Assembly: GCA_018654255.1 (NCBI GenBank)
Contig: JABILX010000002.1
Location: 1-64,000 of the forward strand
From: Candidatus Peregrinibacteria bacterium
GTDB taxonomy: Bacteria; Patescibacteriota; Gracilibacteria; UBA1369; LOWO2-01-FULL-3
Direction of reading: 5' to 3'
Length of the DNA stretch: 64,000 nucleotides
The notes under the pieces were generated by a model. The model had not been told where the DNA came from. It did no database searches and saw nothing but the letters and a program-made list of their open reading frames with translations. The translations under genes were made by a program, and so were the position numbers. Shown piece by piece: positions 29,685 through 52,095 of this stretch (position 1 is the stretch's first letter; the number at the start of each line of letters is the position of its first letter).

Positions 29685-29690
29685 TAACTT

Positions 29691-29699
29691 ATTATACCA
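29691..29699 (-). promoter_or_regulatory. Extended -10 promoter (TGGTATAAT)
   Basis: Minus-strand TGGTATAAT only 6 bases from the ATG at 29684, so the transcript would begin at or near the start codon. Confidence 0.5.
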
Positions 29700-29769
29700 T
29701 AAAACTTGCAAATTTTCCCCCCAGAAAGTAGAATCAACAAAGACAAACCCCTCAAATAACCCACTTCCT

Positions 29770-32809: not shown

Positions 32810-32905
32810 TAGAAGAAAAAGGTGTTTTTTTTGCTAGCGAATTTGAGCAGTGCTCATCAAAGATGAGCGCGCGATATGAGCTACTAAAAACACCTTTTTC
32901 TTCTA
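32810..32905. repeat. 20-bp inverted repeat with nested hairpins
   Basis: The 19-base arm AGAAGAAAAAGGTGTTTTT at 32811-32829, plus one flanking base, is exactly inverted at 32886-32905. Inside are a perfect hairpin GCTCATC-AAA-GATGAGC (32852-32868) and GAGCA-G-TGCTC. The right arm overlaps the stop of the VirD4-like gene. It may be a large terminator or an element that can fold into a cruciform. Confidence 0.75.
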
Positions 32906-35282: not shown

Positions 35283-35549
35283 CTACCCAATATGCTTCCA
35301 GAAACACTCCTGACAATAGACGATATACTTACTATCAGCAGGATAAGTACTAATAATCTCACTCTTACACTGATCACAAGTTCTCTTATAAAGCTTTCGT
35401 TCATTTCTGAGACTCAATCTGCGTTTTTGCCGACATTCAGGACAGTTCTCAGGCCATGGAAGATCTTTTTTCTTATAGAACTTTTGTTCCTGGTCAATAA
35501 TAAGAAAATCTTTAGTACATTTCTTACATGTTTTTTTCTCGTCTGGCAT
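35283..35549 (-). CDS. Stand-alone double zinc ribbon of the Cys-rich family
   Basis: This 88-residue protein has eight cysteines as four CxxC pairs (CKKC, CPEC, CDQC, CQEC), enough for two zinc ions. It lines up along its whole length with the C-terminal ribbon of the 542-residue protein at 47538: KFYKKKDLPWPENCPECRQKRR here and KFYKQRVLPVPRKCPDCRHL there. The ribbon is thus a separate gene here, placed 41 bases downstream of the 330-residue Cys-rich protein that lacks one. I infer a split form of one architecture. It is likely nucleic-acid or protein binding, but no function is known. Confidence 0.7.
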   Translation of the reverse strand: MPDEKKTCKKCTKDFLIIDQEQKFYKKKDLPWPENCPECRQKRRLSLRNERKLYKRTCDQCKSEIISTYPADSKYIVYCQECFWKHIG

Positions 35550-35590
35550 AATTTTTAAGATTTATAAAATACGTTAAGATTATATCAAAT

Positions 35591-36583
35591 TTAATTGTAC
35601 CGCGCCAATTCCTTCTCATCAAAATAAGGCTCCGTCCAATGCATCGACGCATTACTATCCTCAAAAGAATAAGTTCCAGGCAGATGCTCACCCCATTCTC
35701 CGCTATCAATCATCGCACGCTTAATCTCCGCAACTCGCTTCTCCCATTCCTCAAGAGACCCAACTTTTTCATTAAAAATACAATACTCAGCATGATTCAT
35801 CGCAAAACACCCGAAACAGTGATGTGAATTATGCACATTCTCACAATAAAACAGATCATTCGAATAAAAACACGTCACACAATAGTCACAGTTATAAAGC
35901 TCCATTTCACTCATAACATCATAACAAAGCTCAGATTTATAATAGGAATTACTCATGTCAAAACAATCTTTCAACTCTTCAGAATTATTACAATACATAG
36001 AATCCTCAAGCTTGATTGTATCAAAACACAAAAACGAATTTTTCGAGTCATAAACATAATCACCAGTACAATTCTGGTTGTGAAGCTGATGAACATACAT
36101 CCGAGGAGTTTCACATTTCAACTCCTCCACACGAGCCTCAATCTCTTCAGAGGTCATTGACCTCTTTATTCGATCAACCTCATCCTTATAATTTGCAACT
36201 TTTTTATTAAAAACCATATTTTTTGACCTCCTCTCTCCAACACATCCGAAACAATCGTTACAACCAACACAATCATATAAATACTCACAGTCTGTGCAAT
36301 TCTGACAATCCTGAGAACGATTAGTGTTATAGCATCCCCTACAATCCACACAGTCATAACAAAGCGTACAATCCCTACAATAATCACAACCCACAGAATC
36401 CTTTGAGTTATAGATGAAAAAAGAATAATAACAGTCTTCACTAAACTCACTTCCATAACACAAATAACAATTCTTCATATTCCCCGAATAACTAACATAA
36501 GGACTGTTTTCACACCTTATAATCATTGCCCCCATCCGAGGCTGTTTGAACCTAACGTCGTACATTTGTTTGAGATATGACAT
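35591..36583 (-). CDS. Two-array Cys-rich family protein (330 aa)
   Basis: This soluble 330-residue protein has no signal peptide. Its first array (residues about 25-120) has Cys every 3-6 residues, for example CRDCTLCYDCVDCRGC and CVGCNDCFGCVG, closed by MVFNKKVANYKDE. A second array (about 170-270) ends with YCIFNEKVGSLEEWEK. The tail has the SGEWGE motif. The same layout is seen in the four other large members. Aromatic residues (Tyr, Phe) follow many cysteines. I do not recognise a family; zinc or Fe-S binding is only a guess. It lies upstream of the small ribbon gene and diverges from the broken SLH gene. Confidence 0.65.
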   Translation of the reverse strand: MSYLKQMYDVRFKQPRMGAMIIRCENSPYVSYSGNMKNCYLCYGSEFSEDCYYSFFIYNSKDSVGCDYCRDCTLCYDCVDCRGCYNTNRSQDCQNCTDCEYLYDCVGCNDCFGCVGERRSKNMVFNKKVANYKDEVDRIKRSMTSEEIEARVEELKCETPRMYVHQLHNQNCTGDYVYDSKNSFLCFDTIKLEDSMYCNNSEELKDCFDMSNSYYKSELCYDVMSEMELYNCDYCVTCFYSNDLFYCENVHNSHHCFGCFAMNHAEYCIFNEKVGSLEEWEKRVAEIKRAMIDSGEWGEHLPGTYSFEDSNASMHWTEPYFDEKELARYN

Positions 36584-36747
36584 TTTATTCTGGGTTACTT
36601 AGATCATTAATTTGTATACCATACTTTTTAGACAAACCGAAAAATAAAATTTGCCCAAAAACCTCAACTTAAGGTAAAATCCATAGTTGGACTGAGCATT
36701 CAACTGCTCATCACGTATTTAATCATTAGGTTATAACCCTCACACCT

Positions 36748-39558
36748 ATGAATATCAGAAAAAAACTGCACCGAGCTTTGGCTGTGCTCGGAATTTTAAC
36801 AATCACAACCACAGCCACAATCACCCCGGTCCTAGCAGATAGCTACGATGAGACTACAACCGCAGATTTCAACAAAGGAGCCCACTCAAACACACAGGTA
36901 ACAAACGTAGACAACGGTGAATTAGCTCTAGACGAAAACACCACAACATCCGAAGTCTCAATCCCCTCTCCAGGGCTAGTAACAGATGGAGATTGGGGAA
37001 CAGCATACATGCGACCAAAAATCGTAAATGACACCGGGTACTACGCAACCGATGGATTCCTATATGCAACTTGGCACGAAGATGAAGGCATCGGAAACTC
37101 AGACGACATATGGTTCTCAAAATCAGAAGACGGTGGAGAAACCTGGATTGATCCAGTAAGAGTCGACGATGGTGATGAAGGAATGTGTGAAGGCGCATCA
37201 ACCACATCTATCCTCCCAGACATCGCAGTAAACACAGCTCTAAATCCACCCCAGATATACATCGTCTGGGTTGACGATCGTCCAACGAACGGAATATGTG
37301 AAGAAGGAGGACCAGATCAATACCTCAACGTATGGTTTTCAGGATCTATAGACGGAGGCGACAACTGATCACCGGACGTAAAGGTAAACAATTGGGGATC
37401 CATGAGCCTGCTTGGGCCAATGCTTCCACAACAAGAATTCATTGATGGATATTGGAGAAACTATCAAACTGGAGGACCAAAAGTATCGATGGGACCAGAC
37501 CACCAAGACATTTTAGTAACATGGATGAATGACGAAATAATGCCAGGAGACTACGACATATATTATTCAAAATCACTACAGACCTACCCAACTTACGTAT
37601 TCGACGCAGATTGGTCTACACCATGCCCATACGTTGGAGGATACGTGTTCGGAGACCCAAACTGTGAAGACGCAAAAATCGACGACAACACTTCGGGGGA
37701 AGAGTCCTCGTACTCAGGAGTCCCAGCCATCACAGCAGATCTAGAAGACAGCAACGGACTAATAACAATCGCATATGAAGACCAGAGAGCCTACCAACCA
37801 TGGATGGGAGAAATAGCTCTAGACATTCTATATGTTCAATTCGAAGAATACGGATCAGACCCCTGCCCATTCCCAAAAGTCACCACAGCAAATCTCAGTC
37901 CACTAGACATCACTCCAGGATTTGCACCACCATACCCAACATCGATAGCAAGCTACGAAGTCTCAGACAACAGAGGAAAGCAACCATTCTTCAATTACGA
38001 ACCAGATATTGCTGACGAAGAAGATACGGACTTCGTATATTTCTCATGGACTCAAGAAAGAAACCCAGACGGAGCCGCAAACCCTCTAATATCAAGCTTG
38101 AATGGACTTGTAGCCTTCGATCCAATAACAAGCGATAACAACATAATGTACGATTTCTTTAGTGGACTAGACACCTACCTCGACGTCCAAGTGAATGACG
38201 AAGCTCCCGGAAAATCCCTAGTGTCAGACATCGAAGCGAACATGGACGACGAAAATGAAGCATGGATCGCCTGGACATACTACGGTGAATATACATCTTC
38301 AGAAGTCAGATTCGACCGCTCACAAAACGCAATCAACGCCGGTGGCTCAACATGGGACACAGACGAAACAGTCACAGGAGGAGTAGCTGGTTGGTACACA
38401 ATATCTCCAGATTTAACACAAACAAGATATGGGTGGAACATGGAAGCCCTTCACATGATCTGGAACGACGTCGATCAAACAGACATGCGCGGAGACGGAT
38501 CGATCGGACAAGACCCATACACATCTAGATCTTTGGACTGGGGCAATCACTGGGGACAATATTATCTCACAGGAACAGGAACATATATGTCACAAAACAT
38601 CGACCTGACCGCAACTTCAAGTATTGAATATGGGACATTAAGCTGGTCTGAAACACTCCCAGAAGGCTCAGACGCACAAATCCAACTCAGAACTGCTGAG
38701 ACAGAAGCAGGCTTAGCAGGAGAATCATTTACAGGCCCAGGAGGAAACCCAGGTGCATATTACTCAACATCTTGGAATCAAGATATATACAGTGATCACG
38801 ACGGAGACGGATGGATACAATATCTAGTCCGCCTCACAGGAGCAGACAATTGGGCCCTAACCCCTTTCATGGAAGAGATCGTAATCACATACTCTGAAGG
38901 AGCCGCCGCAGAAGGTGAAGGAGAAGGTGAAGGAGAAGGTGAAGGTGAAGGAGAAGGTGAAGGAGAAGGTGAAGGTGAAGGCGAGGGCGAAGGAGAGGGA
39001 GAAGGCGAATATAACGGCTTTACAGATGTTGACCCAGGTGACCCATACTACGACGCAATAGATTTCGTCGGAAGCAATGATATCTTCGGAGGATATCCAG
39101 ACGGAACTTTCAAACCAAATCAAGTAATTAACAGAGCAGAAACAGCAAAAGTAATCCTCGAAGCACTCAACTACACAATCTACGAAAACCCTGGACACAA
39201 TTTCGGATACTCAGATCTAAACACTTCAGGCTGGTACATGAAGTACATCTTCACATCTTTCGCAAAACAGATAATGAAAGGATACCCAGACATGAGTATG
39301 AAAGCAGAGCAAACCGTTAATAGAGCAGAAATGCTAAAGATGTTCCTAAAAGCGACAGGCTCATCTCTCTCATCTTGCGACGCAACCCCATATCCAGACG
39401 TAACCGCAGACGCTTGGTACTGCACCTACGCAAAATTCGCACAGTTAAACAACCTGGTAGACACAGATTCAAGCGGAAACCTAAACCCGATAAAAGGAAT
39501 GACCCGTGGCGACGTAGCAGAACTTTTTTACAGATACAACACTGCTTTTGGACTGTAA
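36748..39558 (+). pseudogene. SLH-anchored Asp-box surface protein broken by in-frame TGA
   Basis: One frame of 937 codons is cut by TGA at codon 207 (37366-37368) and stays in frame to 39558. The N-terminal part has a signal peptide (ALAVLGILTITTTATI) and a first Asp box (SKSEDGGETW). The TGA lies exactly at the Trp of the second box (SGSIDGGDN, then SPDVKV). The rest continues the beta-propeller-like part, a Gly-Glu linker of about 20 GE pairs, and three SLH repeats (FTDVDPGDPYYDAIDFV and YPDGTFKPNQVINRAETAKVI, for example). It should be a wall-bound sugar- or protein-binding surface protein. Without readthrough only a 206-residue secreted stub forms, or a second start such as ATG 37402 (no signal peptide) is used. 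Confidence 0.7.
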
Positions 39559-39578
39559 CAGATAAGACAAAACCAAGA

Positions 39579-39611
39579 AAAGCCGCTTCCCCAAAAAGGA
39601 GGCGGTTTTTA
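39579..39611 (+). terminator. Intrinsic terminator
   Basis: AAGCCGCTTCC pairs with GGAGGCGGTTT (one G-U pair) around CCAAAAA, with a T-run after it. It lies 20 bases past the stop of the SLH/Asp-box gene. This suggests that the downstream half is still transcribed as one unit with the upstream half. Confidence 0.8.
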
Positions 39612-39705
39612 ACAAATCCTTTACGCTATCCACCCTCCCCCGCCCCATTGCCAAAAAGGCCATTTTGTGATAAAATTCTAGGATAATATTGAAAATAAAA
39701 ACAAA

Positions 39706-40104
39706 ATGGCAAAGCCAATAGATCTAATAGCAGGAGGTCCAGTAGCCTCAACAAATGTCCTTACACAGGATACTGCTTTGACAGACAGAATGGACAGAAA
39801 CGCCGAGAAACTCCAATGCGAACCTATTTTAGACGCAATACGAAGCACTAGAGATCTAGTAAAACATGCTGTTGTAGACGTCCCCCTTCAAACCTGGGAA
39901 AAAGTAAAAAACCTCACAGTAAACCTACTCACAGCGCCATTCCTAAAAGTAGCCCAAATCGTCACAAACGTAAAAAATTCAGTCCAGGCAGTCCTAGGCG
40001 GAGGAATGTTGGCGATAGAAGGCTTAGTATCAACACCGGTATCAAGTGTCGGAGGAAAAATAAGAAGCTTCAAACCAGACCAATCAGAACCTCTCCCCGC
40101 ATAG
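39706..40104 (+). CDS. Hypothetical protein
   Basis: This 132-residue protein has a helical middle with a short, moderately hydrophobic stretch (LTVNLLTAPFLKVAQIV, residues 65-80) and a later one (VQAVLGGGMLAIEGLVSTPV). It looks amphipathic rather than membrane-spanning. The family is unknown. It lies between the terminator and the converging Cys-rich gene at 40108 (3-base gap). Codon use agrees with the neighbours. Confidence 0.45.
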   Translation: MAKPIDLIAGGPVASTNVLTQDTALTDRMDRNAEKLQCEPILDAIRSTRDLVKHAVVDVPLQTWEKVKNLTVNLLTAPFLKVAQIVTNVKNSVQAVLGGGMLAIEGLVSTPVSSVGGKIRSFKPDQSEPLPA

Positions 40105-40107
40105 TTT

Positions 40108-41040
40108 TTAGTGCTCAATCCCCTCAAATTCCTCATCTTCAAAAACTGACATCAAATTCCCAGCCTCCGAAGATTCCAGGAGCTCTTTCCATATCTCAGC
40201 AACTCGAGTTTCATACTCCTCCTTCGATGTGCAAGGCTCATTCAAAACATGATACTTCTTGTGATGCAGACCATCACACATGAAACAACTTTTGCAGTCC
40301 TGGCACTGAAAACAGAACTGACAATCCGAACAATTCGCCAAAAAACACGAATAATTACAATTAAAATTCCATCCTCCACCAATACACTCATAACCCAACT
40401 CAACCTTGGTAAAAGAACAATCAACAGAATCAATTATCTCATAAGCATTAAAACAATACGCATCATCTCGCGATCGAACCATATCAAAACTCCAATAACA
40501 CCTCTGAGAATTCTCGATATGATTTCCAACACAATCCTCTGACTTCAAAATAAAATCTCTGTGAGGAACTTTCAGTTTCAATTCCTGAACCTGTTTCACA
40601 TCGTGTTCTGAAAACCGAACATTCTCAATATAACTCTCATACTCCTCCTGAGAAACTTTCTCATTAAACAAATGATATTTCTTACGAACCAATCCAACAC
40701 ACCCATAACATTCATCACAACCAGTACAATCATAACAACCCACACAATCCCGACAATCCTTGCAGTCCTGACAAAACGAGCATCCATAACACCGCGCACA
40801 ATCCATACATTCATAACAAAGCTCACATTTCTCACAATATGAACAGTCCACCACATCCTCCCCGTGATAAACCCAATAATTATAGTAACAATCCCTCTGC
40901 CAACCACTTCCCCTCGTAAAAAAACAATCCTTGCTATGATTCGTGTGTGAAGTAAAAGCCGAGTTTTCACAATTCCACTGGGTCAGCGCCAGCTTCGGTG
41001 TCTCAAGAAGCAACTTTTTATAATCTTCAAGGAAACTCAT
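40108..41040 (-). CDS. Two-array Cys-rich family protein (310 aa)
   Basis: This 310-residue protein has 35 cysteines by my count (11%). The first array (about residues 45-120) is the densest in the family, a row such as CYECMDCARCYGCSFCQDC, closed by HLFNEKVSQEEYES. The second array (about 165-260) ends with YHVLNEPCTSKEEYE. The C-terminal SGEWG motif of its relatives is changed here (SSEAGNL). There is no ribbon and no signal peptide. The gene lies 9 bases after the lipoprotein at 41050 in the same direction, so the two could share a transcript. Confidence 0.65.
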   Translation of the reverse strand: MSFLEDYKKLLLETPKLALTQWNCENSAFTSHTNHSKDCFFTRGSGWQRDCYYNYWVYHGEDVVDCSYCEKCELCYECMDCARCYGCSFCQDCKDCRDCVGCYDCTGCDECYGCVGLVRKKYHLFNEKVSQEEYESYIENVRFSEHDVKQVQELKLKVPHRDFILKSEDCVGNHIENSQRCYWSFDMVRSRDDAYCFNAYEIIDSVDCSFTKVELGYECIGGGWNFNCNYSCFLANCSDCQFCFQCQDCKSCFMCDGLHHKKYHVLNEPCTSKEEYETRVAEIWKELLESSEAGNLMSVFEDEEFEGIEH

Positions 41041-41049
41041 ACAAGAAAA

Positions 41050-41769
41050 TTAATATCCTCCAATTCCAACTCCCCAATCACCCTCATAATTTAACCAACA
41101 ATTGTCCGCATCCTCCCGAAAATCAGGATCACTATTCATACAATCAATCATCTCCCCAAGAAAAATATTATCAAACTCCACATCAAACGGCCCCCAAGTC
41201 GCATCACAATAATCATAATGATGAACATGTTTCTTGTTAACACCATCCAAACACCTCATATACGAATCAAAAGCAGGATCACTCGAAAGATCAATATACA
41301 TAGTCCCAATCAACCCATAAGTCCCACTCTCAAAAACAGCTGGTTCCCATTCCTCTTCCTCTTCAAGCATCTCCCCATAAAATTCAGCTAACTCACTATC
41401 CCCCTCCTCATAAGAAGTTACAGCAAAATTCGCGATATCAACCTCTTCCTCTTCAGCTTGTGCAGCCGCCTCCTCGGCCTCTTGCGCAGCTGTTATAGCA
41501 TCCATAGCCTCATCGAAGTCGGTCAGATTTCCCGACCAACTCTCATTAGGATCATCATCCTCAGGATCCCAATTCAAACCCTCCGCATCGGGAGGCAAGA
41601 TAAGATTACCATCCTCATCAAAATTCATTTCATCTCCATCAGTCTCATCCCCACTCGCCAGCTCCTTTAACGCAACACCCCAATCTTTAACAATCTCAAA
41701 AGGATCACAAGCAGTCAGCCCAAACAAAACAACTCCCGCCAAAACAATAATGAAAATTTTTCTAGACAT
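41050..41769 (-). CDS. Acidic lipoprotein
   Basis: From the ATG at 41769 (MSRKIFIIVLAGVVLFGLTAC) the product is 239 residues with a clear signal and lipobox (LTAC), so it should be lipid-anchored at Cys 20 or so. The mature part is very acidic (Glu/Asp-rich, with an Ala/Glu helix at about 95-115). The end has cysteines (NSDPDFREDADNCW and YMRCLDG). No family is recognised. An extended -10 box lies upstream. The next gene in the same direction is the 310-residue Cys-rich protein. Confidence 0.65.
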   Translation of the reverse strand: MSRKIFIIVLAGVVLFGLTACDPFEIVKDWGVALKELASGDETDGDEMNFDEDGNLILPPDAEGLNWDPEDDDPNESWSGNLTDFDEAMDAITAAQEAEEAAAQAEEEEVDIANFAVTSYEEGDSELAEFYGEMLEEEEEWEPAVFESGTYGLIGTMYIDLSSDPAFDSYMRCLDGVNKKHVHHYDYCDATWGPFDVEFDNIFLGEMIDCMNSDPDFREDADNCWLNYEGDWGVGIGGY

Positions 41770-41793
41770 AGAAAAAAGGTTAAGTACTAAGCA

Positions 41794-41802
41794 ATTATAG
41801 CA
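41794..41802 (-). promoter_or_regulatory. Extended -10 promoter (TGCTATAAT)
   Basis: Minus-strand TGCTATAAT, 25 bases upstream of the lipoprotein start at 41769. Confidence 0.5.
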
Positions 41803-41895
41803 TAGTAAAAAGAACTCAAGCAATTACAAGTAAACCATTGACAGACCAGACTTTCTAAGTCAGAATACACCCCATTTCAAATCCCAAACATAATA

Positions 41896-42384
41896 ATGAA
41901 AATCGAAATAATAGACCCAGAAACCAGAGAACCAACAGAAGACATCACTCAGAGAGTAATGATTGTCGACCCAAATCTTCAACTTGCAGCAACAGAAACA
42001 AGAGCTCTGATATTAATCAAGACGGGTAGAGAAGAAGAAGCTCTACCTTTACTTAGAGAAGGGATGGAAAGTGGCCTTCACGTCTCTAGATTTATGTACG
42101 CCAGCATAATGCTCGAAAAAGACAGAAGCCAATATAAATACTGGATCGGAGAGATGTTTTTAGGAGTAAGAGATCAATACATGCTAATGAAAATGGCTAG
42201 CACAATATTAGATGTAATAACCCTGGGACTAGGAACCACCCCTCAAACACAGTACAGAACACCAGACACAACAACCATATTAGCAACAATGCATGAATTC
42301 CCATCAAAACCAGACACAGAAAAAGACGAAATACTAAGAGAAATCCAAGGAAGCCTAGCAATCTTTACAACGACTCCAAACTAA
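41896..42384 (+). CDS. Short TPR-like hypothetical protein
   Basis: This 162-residue protein has one recognisable helix pair (LAATETRALILIKTGREEEALPLLREGM) with the spacing of a single TPR repeat, then helical and unordered stretches. The N-terminus (MKIEIIDPETREP) is a strand. The stop overlaps the converging 42365 gene by 20 bases. The function is unknown, perhaps protein binding. Confidence 0.5.
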   Translation: MKIEIIDPETREPTEDITQRVMIVDPNLQLAATETRALILIKTGREEEALPLLREGMESGLHVSRFMYASIMLEKDRSQYKYWIGEMFLGVRDQYMLMKMASTILDVITLGLGTTPQTQYRTPDTTTILATMHEFPSKPDTEKDEILREIQGSLAIFTTTPN

Positions 42385-43240
42385 AACCACTAATCAAATC
42401 ACGATCTTTAGTTCCAGCCCCTTCTCCAAGAGCAGTCGTTATTCGACTAGCAAAAGAATGCCTCATCTCCCCAGTAGTAACAGCATTATTCAAATCAGCA
42501 TTAACATGTAAAAGCAAAGATCCTTTCCTGAAAATAGGACTATCCATAGATTGCAAAAACTGCCTACTTCCTTGCACCTTAGGTAAATGCCGAGTCAAAT
42601 CAATGTAAAGCAATCTAGGCCTATCCTCATTGAAGACACTCCCATCAACCACAAAAAACCCATCGGCCCCATAAAGATTATCCAGGGGAGTACCTAAAGC
42701 ACTGTACCACTTCACAAGAGATTTATCCTCAACACCCAAATGACTACACACCTCAGAATGCAATTTTTTCATAAAACCATCATCAACCAAACCAGGATCA
42801 ACAGGGTTAACACCCTCCGCCTGTGCGCGAACAACATATCTAGTCAAAGCCTGTTTCAACAGATTATACAACCTATCCTCACCTTTGTTATAAGTATGAG
42901 TAAATTTATTTAAGACATGAACCATTTCCCCTTGAACACAACCCTTTTGAGAAAGAGGCACTTCCTTAAATTGCCTTGCAAGCTCAATCAATTTTTTCAC
43001 AGTTCTAGGCAAAGATTTAACAGCTCTTTTATACATTTTCTCCTGTTTCATCAACTTCCGATCAGGAGTACACAAAGCATCCTCATCAATAAGTCTATCT
43101 ACAATACTTTCTTCAAGTAGAGGCTCAGTCATTTCCCCCCCAAGCAAAGCTTCAGCAGCTTCACCACGACTGTACTGCAACTGAGTTATTTCATCATCAT
43201 CACTCACATATGAACCTAAGTGGGTATATTGTCCATTCAT
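42365..43240 (-). CDS. Hypothetical protein
   Basis: This 291-residue soluble protein is helical in its first half (KQEKMYKRAVKSLPRTVKKL). A mixed end has strands around RLLYIDLTRHLPKVQGSRQ and GSLLLHVNADLNNAV. I recognise no motif. It lies on the minus strand between the TPR-like gene and the 315-residue Cys-rich gene, in the direction of the latter, 76 bases apart. No start signal decides between possible starts, so I keep the longest. Confidence 0.45.
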   Translation of the reverse strand: MNGQYTHLGSYVSDDDEITQLQYSRGEAAEALLGGEMTEPLLEESIVDRLIDEDALCTPDRKLMKQEKMYKRAVKSLPRTVKKLIELARQFKEVPLSQKGCVQGEMVHVLNKFTHTYNKGEDRLYNLLKQALTRYVVRAQAEGVNPVDPGLVDDGFMKKLHSEVCSHLGVEDKSLVKWYSALGTPLDNLYGADGFFVVDGSVFNEDRPRLLYIDLTRHLPKVQGSRQFLQSMDSPIFRKGSLLLHVNADLNNAVTTGEMRHSFASRITTALGEGAGTKDRDLISGFSLESL

Positions 43241-43316
43241 TTTTTATTTTTTGATTGTAATAAGTAATTATACGTCAAAAAACCCTTTCTGTCAAAGACC
43301 TGGGGCCCACAAAAAA

Positions 43317-44264
43317 TCACCCAGCATCAAACCTCTCCCCCTCCAAAATAGGCCACTTCCCCCACTCGCCCGAAGCTTTCATCTCCTCAATAATCTCCGC
43401 CTTCTTTTTTTCATAATCTTCAGGCGAATACTTCTCATTCAAAATCATATATTCACCATGATTAACACTCACGCAACCAAAACAATTTTTCGAATTAAAA
43501 ACCTGAAAACAATAATCACAATCACGCGTAACCTCACAATAGTAACAAAACGAGCAATTGTAGCCTTTACCAACCTGAATGCACTGATAACACTGATTGA
43601 GATCCACATTCGACGTAACATCCCACGTATCCACGGTCCTTTCCCCATAAACATTGTAATGAAAATAAACATACCCACAATCCTGAACACCATCAGCATC
43701 AAAACACTCAACACAGCGCTGAGCATTCTGCAAATGATCTCCAGTACTATCTTCAATCCTGTAATTCATCATATGTTGATGAGGAACAGACTCTTTGATT
43801 TTTTCAAACTCAGCAAAAATCGCATCCATACCTTTAGCCTTCCATTCAACAACACCTTTCTCATACTCCTCTTCCGAAAGCTTTTTATTAAACAAAGTAT
43901 GTTGCTGCTGCCGAAGTCCAGCACACCCAAAACAATTGCTGCATCCAATACAATCATAACAAAACATCGAGTCACTCACCCTCCTGCAATCCTGCAACCA
44001 CACACCGTTATAGCACTCATGACAATTCACACATTCATAACAAAGTTCACACAAATCACACACACTACAATCCCCACAATATTTGCACTTTTTCCCCTGA
44101 ATACAGTACATACAATGCTCAAAATAATCCCCATGCACACACATATAACAGTTCTTCGAAAAATAGAGGTAATCGTTATATTCACACCCTGTGTTCTTGA
44201 ACCCGCGCAATCCTAGGTGCGCAGATTTCTGCTTCAATTTTTGGAAATCTTCAAAAAATGTCAT
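43317..44264 (-). CDS. Two-array Cys-rich family protein (315 aa)
   Basis: This 315-residue protein has a first array at about residues 25-120 (CSVCDLCELCYECVNCHEC and CIGCSNCFGCAG), closed by HTLFNKKLSEEEYEK. The second is at about 165-255 (CYQCIQVGKGYNCSFCYYC), closed by MILNEKYSPEDYEKKK. The ending ASGEWGKW is the family tail. The stop is TGA. The TrmB-like regulator gene ends 19 bases upstream of its start, making it the one member with a clear regulator in the same unit. Confidence 0.65.
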   Translation of the reverse strand: MTFFEDFQKLKQKSAHLGLRGFKNTGCEYNDYLYFSKNCYMCVHGDYFEHCMYCIQGKKCKYCGDCSVCDLCELCYECVNCHECYNGVWLQDCRRVSDSMFCYDCIGCSNCFGCAGLRQQQHTLFNKKLSEEEYEKGVVEWKAKGMDAIFAEFEKIKESVPHQHMMNYRIEDSTGDHLQNAQRCVECFDADGVQDCGYVYFHYNVYGERTVDTWDVTSNVDLNQCYQCIQVGKGYNCSFCYYCEVTRDCDYCFQVFNSKNCFGCVSVNHGEYMILNEKYSPEDYEKKKAEIIEEMKASGEWGKWPILEGERFDAG

Positions 44265-44283
44265 CAGGTGGAATTATAACAAC

Positions 44284-45021
44284 CTAACTCCTCCCCCACA
44301 ACTCCTCAAACATCGATCTCTGAGTCTGAGCTAAAACTTTGTTCCAAATCTCAACCGCAGCCACTTCTCTTTCATCATAAGAAAACATATAAACTTTTTC
44401 ATCTGTAATGATCGTGTCAGAGTCAAACTTAACCCTCTTTGGAAGAACTTTTATCTTGTGATTAGAAGTGTTCGCATCCCTGAAATATTCACGCCCCCTT
44501 TTACAATCAATCACAAACTCTTTCACCTTAAGTTTTTTAGCATGAATAGCATCTTCAATTTTATCAAAATAAATCTGCATCACCTTATTATTAACCCCAG
44601 GATTAACAAACGCACAAAAACCCTTTTCCTTGATTACTTCTTCATAAACTTTCATCACAGCCTCTTCCCCTTCATAAAACTTCACCTTGGGAGTCACAGA
44701 GAGTTTATTTTCCAAAGCTTCTAAATCAGATAAATTTGCATCAAAAAGTTGCCTCGTCCTCTTGAGATCCGCCTCCTTTGCTCCAAGTAGATCCTCGAGT
44801 TCTTGAACAGGAATACACTTAAAATATTTCATCTTATTCCTATCAAATTGCTCAACTAAACCAAGCTTCTGAAGCTCCTCAAGAATCAAATACATCGTCG
44901 GTCGCGGCACACTCATATACCGAGCGATCACACTCACCGGCTGAGCACCAAGCTCAAGCATTTTCAAAAACGTACTAGCTCCCCTCTCATCCGTCCCAAG
45001 ATTTATTATTAATTCACGCAT
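44284..45021 (-). CDS. TrmB-like transcriptional regulator
   Basis: This 245-residue protein has a winged-helix start (MLELGAQPVSVIARYMSVPRPTMYLILEELQKLGLVE, about residues 22-60), a long coiled helix (about 75-105), and a C-terminal domain (VKFYEGEEAVMKVYEEVI, about 115 on) that fits TrmB regulators of archaea and bacteria. TrmB proteins sense sugars or other small molecules; the ligand here is unknown. It lies directly ahead of the 315-residue Cys-rich gene in the same direction. It may control that gene and possibly the other family members. Confidence 0.75.
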   Translation of the reverse strand: MRELIINLGTDERGASTFLKMLELGAQPVSVIARYMSVPRPTMYLILEELQKLGLVEQFDRNKMKYFKCIPVQELEDLLGAKEADLKRTRQLFDANLSDLEALENKLSVTPKVKFYEGEEAVMKVYEEVIKEKGFCAFVNPGVNNKVMQIYFDKIEDAIHAKKLKVKEFVIDCKRGREYFRDANTSNHKIKVLPKRVKFDSDTIITDEKVYMFSYDEREVAAVEIWNKVLAQTQRSMFEELWGRS

Positions 45022-45091
45022 ATTTTACGCCCACACAAGGCTTGTTGTCAGAAATTATCGACAGCTTTAGTATAGCAATTTAACAGGTTAT

Positions 45092-45580
45092 ATGTCAAGA
45101 TCCAAAACCTCACCCAGTCAGCCAGCCTTGACAATCAAACGATCCGATGCTATAGTTCGCCCTAAACTTAACCACCATAAAATGTTTAGAACAGCAAAGG
45201 ATTTGATTCAAGAATTCGAAGAAATAAAAGCATCAAAACTTGAAGAAGCAAAAAACGATGTAAAAGACAGGGAAAAAGCAATTCTAGACAGAGTTGACCT
45301 CAAAAAAACACGAGAAGAAATTGAGGAAATAATAAAGACCGCAAGTCAAGAAGCCGACTCAGCTCTCCATGAAAAATTAGAACCACTGAGAAAAGAGGTG
45401 AGAAACATGATAAAAGACTTAGAAATAATGATAGATAGTCGCAGTCAGGACCCATTCGTTCAAAAGCTACTAAAAGAAAAGGCTGAGGCACATCACATGG
45501 CATGTGAATTAGACGAAGACGATGATGATGACTTAGGCCTCGACCTTGAAGACGACCCAGACGATGACATTGACGACTAA
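45092..45580 (+). CDS. Coiled-coil protein with acidic tail
   Basis: This 162-residue protein is mostly one long charged helix (about residues 30-130, KDREKAILDRVDLKKTREEI and so on) and ends in an acidic tail (DEDDDDDLGLDLEDDPDDD). No family is recognised. It leads a three-gene row (45092, 45591, 46182) with very small gaps. A protein-binding or chaperone-type role is possible from the acidic tail and coiled coil only. Confidence 0.5.
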   Translation: MSRSKTSPSQPALTIKRSDAIVRPKLNHHKMFRTAKDLIQEFEEIKASKLEEAKNDVKDREKAILDRVDLKKTREEIEEIIKTASQEADSALHEKLEPLRKEVRNMIKDLEIMIDSRSQDPFVQKLLKEKAEAHHMACELDEDDDDDLGLDLEDDPDDDIDD

Positions 45581-45590
45581 CACAACCACA

Positions 45591-46169
45591 ATGACCAACC
45601 ACATCACACAATTAGCACAAGAATACGTCGACACTCACTTTGAAGAGGTCCCATACGGGCATGGTTTGCAGAAACAAACAGCAATTACCGAGAAAGAACC
45701 ATCTCAAGAAGCCAATGAAATAGCAGAGAAAATCTTCGACCTCATACGCAATGATGACGAACCCTCAAGCATTACCTCACAATTCAAAGATGCAATCCTA
45801 AAAGCTTTGCATGAGAAGTTCGAGGGGACTCATCCATCAGAATTCGTCGCACAAACCAGTTTATTCATGGCTGAAATGCAAACATCAGCTAAAGAAAAAG
45901 CACCTGTAACACTCGAAGAATACAAAAGTAAAATCAAAGACATTACTGACAGAATGTATATGCAATCAAGACAAGAAGCAAAAGAAGAGATCTTTTTTCA
46001 AGAAGCCATGCCTCTAACACTCAAAGCATTCGATGACGGGCTAGACCTAGAAACATTGTTAGAAAAAGCACGAAGAATATTTTTCATTAGATTGGGTTCA
46101 ACACTCCCAACAGTCGAACTCCCAAAACATACTGCCCTCGCCCTAGCAGAAAGAATTAAAAATACTTAA
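45591..46169 (+). CDS. Hypothetical helical protein
   Basis: The product is 192 residues from the ATG at 45591. An upstream in-frame ATG inside the previous gene is rejected because those codons are a Thr-rich read of its acidic tail. It is highly helical (EEAKEEIFFQEAMPLTLKAFDDGL), with no motif I know. It starts 10 bases after the previous stop and is followed 12 bases on by the third gene of the row. Confidence 0.5.
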   Translation: MTNHITQLAQEYVDTHFEEVPYGHGLQKQTAITEKEPSQEANEIAEKIFDLIRNDDEPSSITSQFKDAILKALHEKFEGTHPSEFVAQTSLFMAEMQTSAKEKAPVTLEEYKSKIKDITDRMYMQSRQEAKEEIFFQEAMPLTLKAFDDGLDLETLLEKARRIFFIRLGSTLPTVELPKHTALALAERIKNT

Positions 46170-46181
46170 ACAAAACACAAT

Positions 46182-46940
46182 ATGAAAAAATCAGAAACAC
46201 ACACACCAATCTCACCAGAAGAAAAAGCTGGAATAGCCAAAAGTTTCTACGAAGACTTCAAACGCACATTTCAAAACTTCAAAGAAGAAGAAGACCCTGA
46301 AAGAAAACGATGGGCCTACCGATTTCTATTCCTAGAAGAAGCCCGCGACCAAGGCTCATTCGACATGACAAGCCAGGTCGGATTCAGACACACAGACCAC
46401 ATTGAAGATTCAATTTCAATCGTATCAGAAGCAATAAAATTAGCAGAAGCAGATCCAGAATTAGAAGAAGGACACTTTAGAGACTCATTGATTAGTAGAT
46501 TAGAAAGACACGGAAGACATATTCAATTAGACAAACAAATAAGAGAAAAAGAAAACACACCCCCAACCGCCGAATCAAAATCAGAGGAGCAAGAAATCAA
46601 AGACGCAACAGAATCAGTTTTTCTAGAAATCAAAGCAAATATTGAAAAACACGGCACGGCAGGATACGCAACCGAAAAAGACATATACAACCCAACCATT
46701 ACAACAAACCGCCGAACAGATTACCTCCCAGAAAACATCTTAAAACTCAGCAAAATACTCATAGGAGTATCAGCAAAAATAGGTGAGTTGACCAGCCAAG
46801 ACTCCGAAACCAGAGAAATATATCAGAAAGTAATAACAGAGATCCACCAAACACTACTCGCAAGCCTAATCGGAATCACAGAAAGAAACCAACAAACACC
46901 ACAGAAAAAGCCAGGTCTATTCAAAAGATTGCTCGACTAA
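46182..46940 (+). CDS. Hypothetical charged protein
   Basis: This 252-residue protein is rich in Glu, Lys and Arg with helical segments (LSKILIGVSAKIGEL; SETREIYQKVITEIHQTLLA). It is cytoplasmic by composition. No known family is recognised. The ending KKPGLFKRLLD looks like an amphipathic membrane-touching helix. It is the last gene of the three-gene row. Its TAA shares bases with the converging lipoprotein stop (46937). Confidence 0.5.
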   Translation: MKKSETHTPISPEEKAGIAKSFYEDFKRTFQNFKEEEDPERKRWAYRFLFLEEARDQGSFDMTSQVGFRHTDHIEDSISIVSEAIKLAEADPELEEGHFRDSLISRLERHGRHIQLDKQIREKENTPPTAESKSEEQEIKDATESVFLEIKANIEKHGTAGYATEKDIYNPTITTNRRTDYLPENILKLSKILIGVSAKIGELTSQDSETREIYQKVITEIHQTLLASLIGITERNQQTPQKKPGLFKRLLD

Positions 46941-47527
46941 TCAACCTTGTGGGTCTCGCTCATAACAACCTTGGTTCCAACAGCCTTATATTCAACATCT
47001 TCCCCAAAAATATTCATATTTGTAGTACCAGTCCATTCAGACTCAACATCTTTCAAATAAAACATAAGCGACTCCCCATGAGGAGAATTATTATCAATTT
47101 CAAGCTCAAGATGAAAGTTGTATGTCTCCCCTTTCAAAATAACAAACTCATCAAACTTAAAATCATATAAACCTCCATCGAGATCATAGCCAGAAAACTG
47201 ATCCACAACCATCCCAGTGCTTGATTCAACCAACTTCATTGAATCAATAACATCCCCAGCATCATCACCAGAATATTTAATCCCAATCAAAACCTCCTCC
47301 AACTCAACATCATAAAAAGACCTAGCATACAAATCAAAACTCATAACAACGACATCATCATCTCCAGAATGCAACACAAAAGGCTGAGGCATATCATCAG
47401 CAACAAGCCCATGCAAATAACCCTGAAAAAAACCGGAAAAAGCACCTCCTTTCGAACCAACACCAGAACATGCAGACAAAACAAAAACCGTTAAAACAGC
47501 AAACGAAATCGATAGTATTTTTTTCAT
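46937..47527 (-). CDS. Lipoprotein
   Basis: The product is 196 residues from the ATG at 47527 (MKKILSISFAVLTVFVLSAC), a clean signal with lipobox LSAC. The 14 codons upstream of that ATG lie in a longer frame but read as leader. The mature part looks beta-rich (VVVMSFDLYARSFYDVEL, ETYNFHLELEI), as in Ig-like surface proteins. It starts 10 bases after the stop of the 542-residue Cys-rich gene, so it is in the same operon. This is the second lipoprotein adjacent to a Cys-rich gene. Confidence 0.65.
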   Translation of the reverse strand: MKKILSISFAVLTVFVLSACSGVGSKGGAFSGFFQGYLHGLVADDMPQPFVLHSGDDDVVVMSFDLYARSFYDVELEEVLIGIKYSGDDAGDVIDSMKLVESSTGMVVDQFSGYDLDGGLYDFKFDEFVILKGETYNFHLELEIDNNSPHGESLMFYLKDVESEWTGTTNMNIFGEDVEYKAVGTKVVMSETHKVD

Positions 47528-47537
47528 AATATTAAAA

Positions 47538-49166
47538 TTAATAAATTGTTTCTTCATAACACTTCTCACAATACACTTTCTCCCTCTTCTCAGTCGAATA
47601 AGTCGTCCAATCTTCTTCCCCGCACTTAGAACACGCCCTCTTCCAAAGACGACGCGGCGTCCTCAAAGCAATCCTATCCAAGTGCCTACAATCAGGACAT
47701 TTGCGTGGAACAGGCAAAACCCGCTGCTTATAAAACTTCAATTCTTGTGGAATTAATTTGAAACTCTTGCCGCACCCGCCTTCGCAACCTTCCCCACATC
47801 CCACAACATCATCAGCCGCCTTCCCACCTCCAGAGCCAGAAGCCCCCGAAGACTGAGCCTCCTTCCATCCATATCCCTTTTCTGAAGCCTCCTCACGCGA
47901 AATAGGCATATACTCCTGCGCAACCGTCTCGTTGTACGCCCAAGGCGCAATTTGCGCCGGAAAAAACTCACCCCACTCACCAGTCTTCTTCATATGCTCA
48001 ATCAACTTCTCTTTCAACTCCTCATACTCTTTTTTCGAATATTGCTTATTCAAAATACAATACTTGTACCGATTCAAAGCAATACACCCAAAACAATCCG
48101 ATGAATTGTTCAACTGATCACAATAAAAAACATTATTACAGTAGTGAGTCGCCATATTGTAAGCGCTATACTTCAGCGCAAGCGTCGAAATCAACTCACA
48201 CGAAACCTCCGGCTCATACAACGAATAACTCAAATCATAACAATCACGAGCATCCAAAACATCAAACAAATACTTACAATCCCAAGAATTCACAATATTA
48301 AAACAAACCTTACAATTCTTCGAATTTTTGATGTTATTCCCGGTACAATCCTCCGAACCAGCTCCCCAAGTTGACTTGTGAATCGCATCTTCCTCCATCA
48401 TTTTCTTCCATTTCGCTTGCGCTTCCTGCATCGCTTCGTAATCACCCAGCTTCAACTCTTCAACAAACTTTTCATATTCCTCCTCTGAAACTTTTTTATT
48501 AAAAATATGATGCTTCTTATGCCTCAAATTCCAACAAAACACACAATCCGAACACCCTTTCAAATCAAAACAAAAAGCACAATCATTACACCCCTCCAAA
48601 TACATCGACCACCTGCAATTCCAAGATTTATGACAACTAATCACCTCATAACAAAGCTCGCTGTGGTACGCAAAAGTACAATCCGCACAATTCTTCGAAT
48701 ACTTCGTAAACAAGTTGAAATAACAATCCTCATTTGCCTCCCCCGCTATATCGAGATAACAACTCTTATCATCCCCACAGTAGTTGCAATAATTACTATT
48801 CTCACAATGCACAATATCAATTCCCAACCGCGGCACCTTGTTCATCAACTCCTCCCACTGCTCAAAAAATGGCCTCTCAAAATCAATCTCCTGACCATAC
48901 GACAACGGATCCCAATCATCCTTCCACCATTCATCCGGATCATAGACCGGGAAAGGAGTGTCTGAAGGATAAATTGCGACAAATTCTTTTCCGCTCTTGT
49001 CACATTTGCGCGAATAAAAACTCCGATCATTCCTCCAAGCCATTCTTCTCTGCACACGACAAACCGGACAGAACGTCGGCTCAGGAATATGAGCCTTAAC
49101 GTAAAACTTTTTGTCCATCTCATCTAATTCAAATTTTGTTGAGCAGTTTTTGCAAGTTTTCATCAA
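47538..49166 (-). CDS. Two-array Cys-rich protein with zinc ribbons at both ends (542 aa)
   Basis: This 542-residue protein has an N-terminal ribbon (CKNC, CPVC, then CDKSG without the fourth pair), then the Cys arrays with FNKKVSEEEYEK (about residue 240) and LNKQYSKKEYEE (about 395). A tail has GEWGEFFPA and YNETVAQEYMPISREEA, then a Gly/Ser linker and a complete C-terminal ribbon (a Cys-Gly-x lead, CPDC, CSKC, CEKC). The N-terminal ribbon lacks the cysteines for its second zinc; the C-terminal one has them. The lipoprotein follows 10 bases downstream. No function is known. Confidence 0.7.
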   Translation of the reverse strand: MMKTCKNCSTKFELDEMDKKFYVKAHIPEPTFCPVCRVQRRMAWRNDRSFYSRKCDKSGKEFVAIYPSDTPFPVYDPDEWWKDDWDPLSYGQEIDFERPFFEQWEELMNKVPRLGIDIVHCENSNYCNYCGDDKSCYLDIAGEANEDCYFNLFTKYSKNCADCTFAYHSELCYEVISCHKSWNCRWSMYLEGCNDCAFCFDLKGCSDCVFCWNLRHKKHHIFNKKVSEEEYEKFVEELKLGDYEAMQEAQAKWKKMMEEDAIHKSTWGAGSEDCTGNNIKNSKNCKVCFNIVNSWDCKYLFDVLDARDCYDLSYSLYEPEVSCELISTLALKYSAYNMATHYCNNVFYCDQLNNSSDCFGCIALNRYKYCILNKQYSKKEYEELKEKLIEHMKKTGEWGEFFPAQIAPWAYNETVAQEYMPISREEASEKGYGWKEAQSSGASGSGGGKAADDVVGCGEGCEGGCGKSFKLIPQELKFYKQRVLPVPRKCPDCRHLDRIALRTPRRLWKRACSKCGEEDWTTYSTEKREKVYCEKCYEETIY

Positions 49167-49180
49167 TCAAAACTATATCA

Positions 49181-50341
49181 CTACTCCTCTCCAAGATCTA
49201 GCCGACCAACATATGCAGGAATATTCCCAGGCTGACACCTAAAAACCTCTCTCATAACACTCTCAAAATGACTCAAATTGGACAAACACCCTAGAACTTC
49301 AATCTTCTGGTCAACCGTACCAGGAACATCTCTTAAAAGCTCCAAAGAAGAGGTGATATTAATCAAATCCTCACTAGAAAAAGACATTATAGCATCCATA
49401 ACTCGAAGAAAATCGTCTGACAGATCAATATCGGCAAACTGCCTATAATAAGGCACCATATTCTCTGACCCACTAAGATGATTCATCAAGAATCTCCTTA
49501 TAATATGTGACTTTCCATCTTCCATCAGAGCAGAATCTACCTCCTCTCCAGCAATAATAGACGCAACTGAAACCAAAAATAGCTCATATCTGAAAATCTT
49601 TGACCGATTTGCTTCTATAAATTCACGATTAGTATCAGCATCCTCAGGTATAAGCTCAAGTCTACGATCACCAAGTTTTCTAAGCTCTTTTAGAGCTAAT
49701 TCACACTCAGCACGAACAGCCTCATTTCGAAGATCTTCATCTTCAGGATCTCTAACAGTACTCAAAGCAGCACCTGCCACCTTAGAAACTTCAGAATCCT
49801 TATATTTTGAAGGTCCACTCGTACGCATATGCGCAACATTTGACAAGACCGTCTCGCATTGAGGATCTCCCCTTTGACCCTTCTCCTTTAGACTACGAAT
49901 AGCTTTAACTCTAGCAAGCTTATCCACCCCCCAAGAAGCAATAGCTTCAAAAGCAACACCAGTATGGATTTTACCATCAGGACCGCTCATCGTAAGAGGT
50001 ATATCAAAAACTTGACCATCCAAAACATCCCTAGCATTAGCTCTAGCTTCAGAACCACCTTCCATACGAATTTCAGCAAGCGTTTCTGGATCAGTACTAG
50101 CCAATTCCATCAGCCGTCCAAGCAGATCACTTCTCATGGTAAAAGTTTCTGTAACTACAGCACTCCCAGCATACTCCCTTGGCAACCCAAGCTCCGACGC
50201 AGTTTTACGAACAGAAATGCTAATATCAGCAATAGGCTCATCAGGAGAAGCAACTTCAACACTTCCTCCACCCCCACCGTCTCGATCCTCATCACCCAAG
50301 TCAGTATCTAAACCATTATTATCACCATCATCATTTTCCAT
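49181..50341 (-). CDS. Hypothetical protein
   Basis: From the ATG at 50341 (MENDDGDNNGLDTDLGDEDRD) the product is 386 residues. A start 23 codons upstream is possible but gives a hydrophobic lead that looks accidental. An acidic, disordered N-terminus is followed by a helical body with no motif that I can name. It lies between the two double-ribbon Cys-rich genes, in the same direction, 14 bases from 47538. A link to them is possible from position only. Confidence 0.5.
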   Translation of the reverse strand: MENDDGDNNGLDTDLGDEDRDGGGGGSVEVASPDEPIADISISVRKTASELGLPREYAGSAVVTETFTMRSDLLGRLMELASTDPETLAEIRMEGGSEARANARDVLDGQVFDIPLTMSGPDGKIHTGVAFEAIASWGVDKLARVKAIRSLKEKGQRGDPQCETVLSNVAHMRTSGPSKYKDSEVSKVAGAALSTVRDPEDEDLRNEAVRAECELALKELRKLGDRRLELIPEDADTNREFIEANRSKIFRYELFLVSVASIIAGEEVDSALMEDGKSHIIRRFLMNHLSGSENMVPYYRQFADIDLSDDFLRVMDAIMSFSSEDLINITSSLELLRDVPGTVDQKIEVLGCLSNLSHFESVMREVFRCQPGNIPAYVGRLDLGEE

Positions 50342-50406
50342 AATTAAGTTGATTAAAATATTGGTAAATAATACTACCCCAAATAAACCTAGTCTGTCAA
50401 TCAGTG

Positions 50407-52095
50407 TCAAAAAAACTCCTTCACATACTCCTCAGGACTCCACACATCCTCCATCCTATCCGGAGAATAAGAAGTCCAAACAGGAACCCTGCTCCGAGCA
50501 CACTTCCTCTGCCACAATCGCCTAGGATTCTTCGACCTACGCCTCACATAATGTCGACAGTTATAGCACAACCTAGGAATAGGAACTCCAAACCTCCTAT
50601 AATACTTCAATTCTTGAGGCGTAACTTTATAATTCCGCCCACATTCAGAGCACCCCAAAATTTCATCGACAATAGAATCAGGAACATCAGATATAGCATT
50701 CGGGATTTCATACTTTTGCTTAGCAAACTCACGCGCCGGAATATCCATCCAATTCCACCCCCGCTCCTTAACCGCATCACGATCCAAAGGATAAAATTCA
50801 TGAGCAACAGTTTCGTTATAACCAAACCAAGAAGTCTCAGCTGGCATAAACTGCCCCCACTCACCAGTCTCTCTCATATGAGCCACAATCCTCTCCAACA
50901 ATTCATGATATTCATCTTCAGAATATTTCTTATTTAAAATACAAAAATTCTTATGCCTCAATCCAACACACCCAAACAAATCAAACGAACTATCCCAACA
51001 AAAAGCAGAATAATAAACATTCCCTACGTTTCGCCCAGCATAATAATTACACATTAATTCCTGAGCACCAGCACCAACACATTCACAATTATAAGCCAAA
51101 TTCATATTTTCTCCCCAGATATCAACATCCATACAATCATTCGCCCCAACCACAACGTTCGTACAATACCTACAATCCCGGAGGCCAGCACAATCAAAGC
51201 AATAATAACAATCCTTACAATTATCGATATGATCACCTATCACCTCCTCATTTTTCACCCCACGATAAGCCCTTTTCGGTTGCTTCACCACAAATTCAGC
51301 AAATTCCTTTTTGAACTTCTCCAGCCCCTCATAAGAGTCAATTTTATACTCCTCCAACTTTTCCTTATAATCCTTCTCCGAATATTGTTCATTAAAGATA
51401 CAAAATTTAGCCTGACTCAAATTACAACAAGCAAAACAATCTTTACACCCAACACAGTCATACAAAAAAGCCGATTCGCTACACGTCTTACAAAACTTAC
51501 AAAATTTAGAATTATAACAATTCGAACAATTCACGACCTCATAACAAAGCTCACACTGACTCGCAACCAAGAAATCCATACAATCCTTCAATTTATAAAA
51601 AGTCTCCCCATACATACAATCCCAAGATTGCTCTCCATCAAAGGTCAAAAAACAATTTTTCAAACGATAAGCATCATGCGCATAATCACTATTTTCCTGC
51701 TCACCCAAAACAATCAGACTCATCCTCGGAACCTCATGATAAAGCTCCTTCCACTGATCAAAAAACGGCCGCCCAAAATCAAACTCACGACCATAATCAA
51801 GTGGATCATCCTCCCCTCCCCACCAACACTTCGGACAATAAACCGTGGCCTCTTTGTCTGGTGAAAAAATCGACAACATGTTTTTTCCACACTTATCACA
51901 TTCATCAGGATACAAATTTCGCTCATTTCTCTGAGCCTGACGTCGCTGCTGCCTACAATCCCAACATTCAATTGGATCTGGAATGTCATACTTGTCATAC
52001 ACCTTCATCTTGTCCAAAAGCTCTCTATCTTCCTCAAACACAGAAAAATCAGCCCCACAAGTAACACATTTCTTTTGATCAACAACTTGGCTCAT
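50407..52095 (-). CDS. Two-array Cys-rich protein with zinc ribbons at both ends (562 aa)
   Basis: This is the longest member, at 562 residues. The N-terminal ribbon is complete (CVTC, CWDC, CDKC, CPKC). Array one is closed by FCIFNEQYSEKDYKE and array two by FCILNKKYSEDEYHE. The shared tail GEWGQFMPAE and YNETVAHEFYPLDRDAV follows. The C-terminal ribbon keeps CSEC and CYNC but lost the last two pairs (single Cys in KCARSR, Trp in place of Cys after). So it mirrors the 47538 protein, where the N-terminal ribbon is the reduced one. The stop is TGA. It is not clear whether it shares a transcript with 49181 and 47538. Confidence 0.7.
   Translation of the reverse strand: MSQVVDQKKCVTCGADFSVFEEDRELLDKMKVYDKYDIPDPIECWDCRQQRRQAQRNERNLYPDECDKCGKNMLSIFSPDKEATVYCPKCWWGGEDDPLDYGREFDFGRPFFDQWKELYHEVPRMSLIVLGEQENSDYAHDAYRLKNCFLTFDGEQSWDCMYGETFYKLKDCMDFLVASQCELCYEVVNCSNCYNSKFCKFCKTCSESAFLYDCVGCKDCFACCNLSQAKFCIFNEQYSEKDYKEKLEEYKIDSYEGLEKFKKEFAEFVVKQPKRAYRGVKNEEVIGDHIDNCKDCYYCFDCAGLRDCRYCTNVVVGANDCMDVDIWGENMNLAYNCECVGAGAQELMCNYYAGRNVGNVYYSAFCWDSSFDLFGCVGLRHKNFCILNKKYSEDEYHELLERIVAHMRETGEWGQFMPAETSWFGYNETVAHEFYPLDRDAVKERGWNWMDIPAREFAKQKYEIPNAISDVPDSIVDEILGCSECGRNYKVTPQELKYYRRFGVPIPRLCYNCRHYVRRRSKNPRRLWQRKCARSRVPVWTSYSPDRMEDVWSPEEYVKEFF

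Follow-up and report, generated by a model that had tools for sequence, protein, structure and literature searches.

A family of proteins built from two predicted β-solenoids, present in many copies in some CPR genomes, is tied to one transmembrane-less VirD4/HerA-type ATPase. This genomic partnership is well supported and very likely genuine, and the family members are most likely working partners of the motor, not metal stores. The genomes concerned are about 1 Mb in size, yet some of them devote 10–26 genes to this one unnamed family. Thousands of Patescibacteria VirD4-type ATPases lie away from secretion systems, and the locus described here offers a specific, testable partner for one group of these orphan motors.

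Genes encoded at the locus

The window, which is the whole stretch of 64,000 nucleotides that was analysed, encodes five large Cys-rich proteins and one ribbon gene on the minus strand between positions 35283 and 52095. All six ORFs were found where the original prediction had placed them. The longest family member in the ORF list (562 aa; 50407..52095; 42 Cys) consists, in order, of an N-terminal treble-clef ribbon, a first solenoid (residues ~124–246), a helical linker, a second solenoid (residues ~270–400), a conserved FFP...YNET region and a C-terminal ribbon. The 542-aa member (47538..49166; 41 Cys) has the same architecture, with Cys residues lost from the second half of its N-terminal ribbon. 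The treble-clef ribbons at both ends of these two proteins were absent from the original prediction. The 315-aa member (43317..44264; 32 Cys) and the 310-aa member (40108..41040; 35 Cys) contain two solenoids without ribbons, and in the latter 17 successive Cys residues occupy every third position between residues 66 and 114. The 330-aa member (35591..36583; 31 Cys) also contains two solenoids, and its ribbon is encoded by a separate adjoining gene.

This adjoining gene (35283..35549) encodes a free-standing treble-clef ribbon of 88 aa with 8 Cys, in which both four-Cys sites are intact. It matches zf_Tbcl (PF13451; E 1.3e-8), so that the product of the predicted ribbon gene is a named Pfam ribbon. 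It is also similar to the C-terminal ribbon of the full-length proteins (E 9.5e-28 to positions 474–557 of the family profile). Ribbons are either fused to the solenoids or encoded separately beside a solenoid gene that lacks them; the second arrangement is seen in the window and at two other loci (L130 and L131). Among full-length members, the first four-Cys site of the N-terminal ribbon is retained and the second mostly lost; the C-terminal ribbon shows the opposite pattern, with its second site retained and its first often lost.

A VirD4/HerA-type ATPase gene (762 aa; 32903..35191) lies 91 bp downstream of the 88-aa ribbon gene on the same strand, just outside the 35283–52095 region. Its product has an intact Walker A motif and no N-terminal membrane anchor. 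A TrmB-type HTH regulator (44284..45021, minus strand; PF01978, E 4.6e-9) is encoded 20 bp upstream of the 315-aa member, also on the same strand. Both genes had been overlooked in the original prediction. Among the other genes in the window, the plus-strand ORFs at 36748–37368 and 37402–39558 appear to be two parts of a single secreted SLH-domain surface protein, interrupted by a frameshift, and in the second of them a long (GE)n repeat precedes the SLH domains. The minus-strand gene at 28428–29927 encodes an MgtC/DUF4010 membrane protein (PF13194; E 2.6e-64).

Duplicated modules and predicted fold

Two Cys arrays had been predicted in each large protein. Both are present, although in the 542- and 562-aa proteins the Cys content of array 2 is only moderate. 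Across 123 homologues, array 1 has 1806 gaps between consecutive Cys, of which 1729 (96%) are multiples of three, compared with 29% (maximum 32%) in composition-preserving shuffles; for array 2 the corresponding figures are 879 of 1283 (69%) and 30%. The profiles of the two arrays align with an hhalign probability of 99.9 (E 2.8e-35, 117 columns), and this significant similarity indicates that the two halves of the core arose by true duplication, as had been proposed. The predicted array-closing motif is likewise present in both halves of the large proteins, and is looser in the 330-aa protein (CIFNEKVGSLEEWE). Each module is closed by a C-cap motif, FGC-x2-L-x2-K-x-Y-x-I-x-N followed by S-x-EEY, which is also found in the single-module relatives.

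Sequence searches of Pfam, NCBIfam and PDB gave no match to the solenoid core, in line with the original view that the design belongs to no recognised family. No name for the family was found in the literature searched, the coverage of which was incomplete. The Cys-rich proteins described in a 2016 Peribacteria paper are not evidently this family, because they are large and mostly carry signal peptides (PMC4736985). A hydrophobic segment was detected in just 3 of 312 family members, agreeing with the predicted lack of a signal peptide. Also as predicted, no catalytic motif was seen in the large proteins; in the absence of such a motif and of any family match, the idea of an enzyme was rejected.

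AlphaFold2 was run on home-made alignments for the 310-aa and 562-aa proteins. In the 310-aa protein, pLDDT is 86–95 over residues 21–120, with a strand bridge at each third residue. The model of the 562-aa protein has a mean pLDDT of 89 and a pTM of 0.91, with values of only 60–70 in residues 150–220, which make up most of array 1. Each array is predicted to form a narrow β-solenoid with 12-residue coils (12–13 in module 2). The coil length was derived from sequence alone, by autocorrelation and coevolution. For module 1, both the autocorrelation of the profile and the direct-coupling scores peak at 12, the latter with a mean z of 2.1 at that lag and 31 of the 60 top pairs; for module 2, the autocorrelation peaks lie at 13, 26 and 39 and the coupling peaks at lags 12–13. 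With 12 residues per coil and every third residue pointing inward, a coil has four faces of three residues, each contributing a single inward residue. The inward positions are occupied mainly by Cys (51%), Ser (15%) and Leu (9%), and the residue preceding them is Asp or Asn in 36%. A Foldseek search against PDB returned mainly β-helices, none of them significant (best E 0.02). Since these helices had opposite handedness for the two models, we claim a β-solenoid without assigning its handedness. The Mimiviridae protein matched in BFVD (E 1.3e-6) probably represents a further Cys-rich repeat. The name of one phage fold match, 'Caib/baif family protein', led to no informative paper.

Copy number, distribution and selection

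The source genome (1.24 Mb) encodes 15 family members and the ribbon; the original count of six Cys-rich family genes therefore stands for the locus but not for the genome. Relatives have 10–26 matches, only ribbon-type matches, or none. By our own count, full-length members occur in 29 of 380 genomes of the phylum, and named records with the family are mostly from Peregrinibacteria, Peribacteria and Gracilibacteria. The largest set seen, with approximately 26 matches, is in a 0.9-Mb genome at 81% completeness (G014). Two short contigs labelled Bdellovibrionales and Pseudomonadota (L009 and L029) carry CPR-like members and are probably misbinned.

Of 138 adjacent pairs of family members, 137 are co-oriented, and the median gap is 6 bp. 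In nine close pairs, dN/dS ranges from 0.05 to 0.14, which supports the earlier suggestion of a system in use and gives no support to a diversifying repertoire. Between these close orthologs, the solenoids have lower values (0.05–0.06) than the ribbons (0.11–0.12). Paralogs within a locus share 30–37% identity in the solenoids, compared with 46–51% in the ribbons and YNET region, and their most diverged parts are the solenoids and the helical linker. Among members with a local paralog, 93% match another locus better. The low dN/dS and the best matches in other loci together point to specialised old paralogs rather than a fast-changing repertoire.

No confirmed relative of the family was found in viral contigs, and the 562-aa query retrieved no relative from phages and plasmids. 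A viral origin was rejected, the weak phage matches to a Cys-dense query being low-complexity C-x2 repeats. A role in phage or stress defence, one of the functions suggested originally, was not borne out, as no PADLOC model matches any of the five proteins; the 762-aa ATPase has a generic mad8/HerA match.

The linked ATPase and TrmB-type regulators

The 762-aa ATPase scores 30.3 bits against PF02534 (cut-off 20.1) and 24.7 bits against PF10412 (cut-off 20.5). A profile of linked ATPases was run on the same 380 genomes as the family profile. ATPase matches of at least 843 bits occur in 26 genomes, and all 26 contain full-length family members; seen from the other side, the high-scoring ATPase is present in 26 of the 29 genomes with full-length members. 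The best-scoring genome without a full-length member reaches 819 bits (G162), with a 1058-aa protein that has an N-terminal hydrophobic segment. ATPase and family are jointly missing in three genomes from the same family as carriers (G078, G317 and G352), and within one genus one genome has both (G277) and another has neither (G326). The high-scoring ATPase was not found in three genomes that have the solenoid family (G163, G358 and G366). A 500-aa ATPase near the family in G163 was not counted, being non-adjacent in G358 and G366.

A family gene is co-oriented with the ATPase gene and no more than 200 bp from it in 15 of the 26 genomes, is no more than 1.5 kb away in 18, and lies on the retrieved stretch in 22. 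Fourteen of 15 linked ATPases have no N-terminal hydrophobic segment, and paralogs from their own genomes have one (L135 and L136). Support for the deep nodes of the ATPase tree is too low (0.33) to resolve them; the linked ATPases are therefore defined by score and are not a proven clade.

Neighbouring genes were surveyed at 124 loci, some of which overlap on the same contig, so that not every locus counts as independent. TrmB-type regulators are the most frequent neighbours, found at 44 loci and mostly divergent at ~40–230 bp upstream. A VirD4/HerA-type ATPase is a neighbour at 25 loci, mostly downstream on the same strand. By hand count in six genomes, ~10 of the 23 TrmB genes above cut-off adjoin a family gene (binomial P 6e-8 under an assumed 5% background). 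The ATPase neighbour in G194 was set aside as possibly coincidental; its region resembles an fts/mur cluster, as does that of G162. One CPR family has a conserved VirD4-type ATPase of ~495 aa that lacks the N-terminal part (L148:12622-14109, L149:4717-6210 and L138:5713-7194) and is not consistently adjacent to the solenoid family.

Single-module relatives and a motor–solenoid fusion

Single-module relatives of ~232 aa, poor in Cys, were identified in four genomes (L124–L127). They are encoded directly downstream of a divergent ATPase without transmembrane segments, with an overlap or a gap of at most ~20 bp, and this ATPase matches the TrwB and HerA models. In a further genome (G287), a HerA/VirD4-type ATPase and a single-module solenoid form one in-frame ORF of 629 aa (L128:2196-4085, minus strand). 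Module 1 aligns with the single module at an hhalign E of 2.4e-13, and the reverse search with the single-module profile matched only the two-module genomes and these five. The ATPase beside the single-module relatives is an independent second pairing, in distant lineages. The fusion, observed in one assembled genome, favours a working partner over exported cargo.

Proposed role of the family

We tentatively propose that the family members are cytosolic, non-enzymatic adaptors or target-recognition partners of a VirD4/HerA-type motor. The motor would be a single soluble ATPase, putatively hexameric, and each partner would carry two capped β-solenoids with coils of 12–13 residues and a core mainly of Cys, Ser and Leu. 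The constant parts, namely the zinc ribbons and the FF and YNET regions, probably dock onto the motor or onto one another. The two solenoids are the variable part and probably recognise a separate target in each paralog, either protein or nucleic acid, which the motor would then move, unfold or remodel. TrmB-type regulators probably switch the gene clusters. A bolder and less secure proposal is that this may be a new kind of CPR molecular machine, in which a soluble VirD4/HerA-type motor works with 10–26 interchangeable, TrmB-controlled, target-specific solenoid adaptors, and which may derive from a single motor–solenoid pair that survives elsewhere in CPR. Counted against an adaptor role are the three genomes with the family and no high-scoring ATPase, and the fact that some ATPases of the VirD4 type act in secretion as coupling proteins, which would also fit cargo.

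The main rival, which we consider unlikely, is that the proteins are substrates or effectors fed by the VirD4-type ATPase into a T4SS and delivered to the cell that hosts the CPR bacterium. VirD4-type ATPases are T4SS coupling proteins, and the family members are multi-copy and lack signal peptides, and their conserved C-terminal ribbon is basic (+8 per 100 residues). Patescibacteria also contain many such ATPases: 5,713 VirD4-type homologues have been reported from 2,918 genomes, only 148 of them near virB4, and their exaptation was left open (PMC12102498). However, the N-terminal membrane anchor of several unlinked paralogs is missing from the linked ATPases, and this, together with the fusion, favours a working adaptor over exported cargo. 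The solenoids of close orthologs are under strong purifying selection, whereas many effectors would be expected to diversify. The window cluster has no recognised T4SS genes next to it, and a T4SS pilin is a recurrent neighbour at few loci.

It is improbable that the family serves as a cytosolic scaffold or nucleic-acid mimic, similar to the MfpA/Qnr type of pentapeptide-repeat protein, with an acidic surface that regulates the ATPase or another DNA enzyme. The solenoids have a net charge of about −6 to −7 per 100 residues, their weak Foldseek matches include pentapeptide-repeat proteins, and the partner falls within the HerA/VirD4 class, some members of which are DNA translocases. Such a charge is moderate, however, the fold matches are non-significant, and the paralogs differ far beyond the needs of one shared mimic.

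Genomic hitch-hiking, in which the family, the ATPase and TrmB would share a mobile or often-lost island without acting together, appears more doubtful still. The patchy distribution and the SLH-domain genes that also recur near family loci would fit it. The tight same-strand spacing of family and ATPase, the second ATPase–solenoid pairing in distant lineages with its fusion, and best matches in other genomes, as in old orthologous groups, argue against it.

Role of the array cysteines

The inward Cys residues swap with Ser, Leu, Val and Ala, and near-invariance is limited to a few of them close to the module end. Their co-presence is not all-or-none but near zero or negative. Across the coil, at lag 6, it has a mean phi of −0.12 (shuffled columns: 0.000, sd 0.013), with an observed/expected Cys–Cys ratio of 0.90 and a phi down to −0.57 for the lowest pair. 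Co-presence is clearly positive only in the ladder direction, at lag 12, and the volumes of neighbouring inward residues compensate. The Cys quartets of the ribbons, which provide an internal positive control in the same alignment, are largely all-or-none (phi ~0.5–1.0); as kinship of the sequences inflates co-presence counts, the sign and the contrast weigh more than these exact values. The exchange with Ser, Leu and Val and the depleted cross-core pairs, set against the ribbon sets, make the array Cys look like core packing and not like metal sites. Antifreeze-type disulfides were rejected as a reading because Cys pairs at lag 6 are depleted. Coevolution can thus tell packing Cys from metal-binding Cys in one protein.

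Metal storage and sulfur handling, both raised in the original prediction, fare poorly against these results. Storage of Cu(I), Zn or Fe-S within the Cys-lined core, or its use as a sulfur buffer, is highly improbable: up to 35 Cys in a protein without a ribbon, and Cys runs at every third residue along the predicted tubular core, would suit it, but the residues at inward positions are freely interchangeable, the conserved or co-varying sets of ligand Cys that mark a metallothionein or metal store were not found in the arrays, and the single-module relatives have few Cys.

Comparison with known systems

The solenoid family resembles the beetle antifreeze proteins TmAFP and DhbAFP (TCTxSxNCxxAx) in having a 12-residue β-helix coil with every third residue, including Cys and Ser, pointing inward (PMC8038014). 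In TmAFP, disulfides join inward positions six residues apart, and the protein also carries a signal peptide and a TxT ice face, whereas the solenoid family has depleted Cys–Cys pairs at lag 6, no signal peptide, and paired, capped solenoids. By sequence statistics, the family thus shares the coil length of insect antifreeze proteins but not their Cys pairing six apart. Pentapeptide repeat proteins (PF00805) are also four-sided β-solenoids with small inward residues and a function based on shape and surface (PMC8145042). Their 20-residue coil is made of five-residue faces, whereas coevolution gives 12–13 residues per coil in the solenoid family, which has no Pfam match to PF00805, periods of 3 and 12, and a negative value at lag 5.

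Runs of C-x2-C-x2 are shared with Campylobacter phage CP21_166, Vibrio phage 1.238 and phrog_15341. The last matches three window proteins with E values of 3e-8 to 4e-12, but the phage Cys-triplet proteins examined consist almost entirely of triplet repeats and have neither cap motif nor ribbons. The phrog_15341 match may be due to composition alone, and we do not take it as evidence of common descent. The almost pure C-x2 triplet proteins are encoded in Campylobacter phage CP21 (L134:1396-2250) and Vibrio phage 1.238 (L132:1366-1740), the latter annotated as 'insect antifreeze protein'. In Flavobacterium phage FL-1 (L133:2541-2885), the annotated frame consists of PVAPIAP repeats; the Cys array is matched by tblastn (E 2e-7), necessarily in a different frame of this stretch, and the annotation may be wrong-frame.

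The ribbons resemble zf_Tbcl and zf_Tbcl_2 (PF13451 and PF23477), the former matched by the 88-aa gene and the latter weakly by the long proteins; they differ in that fused ribbons tend to lose one site (mostly site 2 at the N-terminus, often site 1 at the C-terminus). The linked ATPase matches VirD4/TraD/TrwB and HerA models (PF02534, PF10412 and PF01935) above cut-off. Unlike VirD4-type coupling proteins, it has no membrane anchor in 14 of 15 cases and no adjoining virB4 was recognised; it co-occurs with the solenoid family instead. This link between a solenoid family and one transmembrane-less VirD4/HerA-type ATPase is the new finding.
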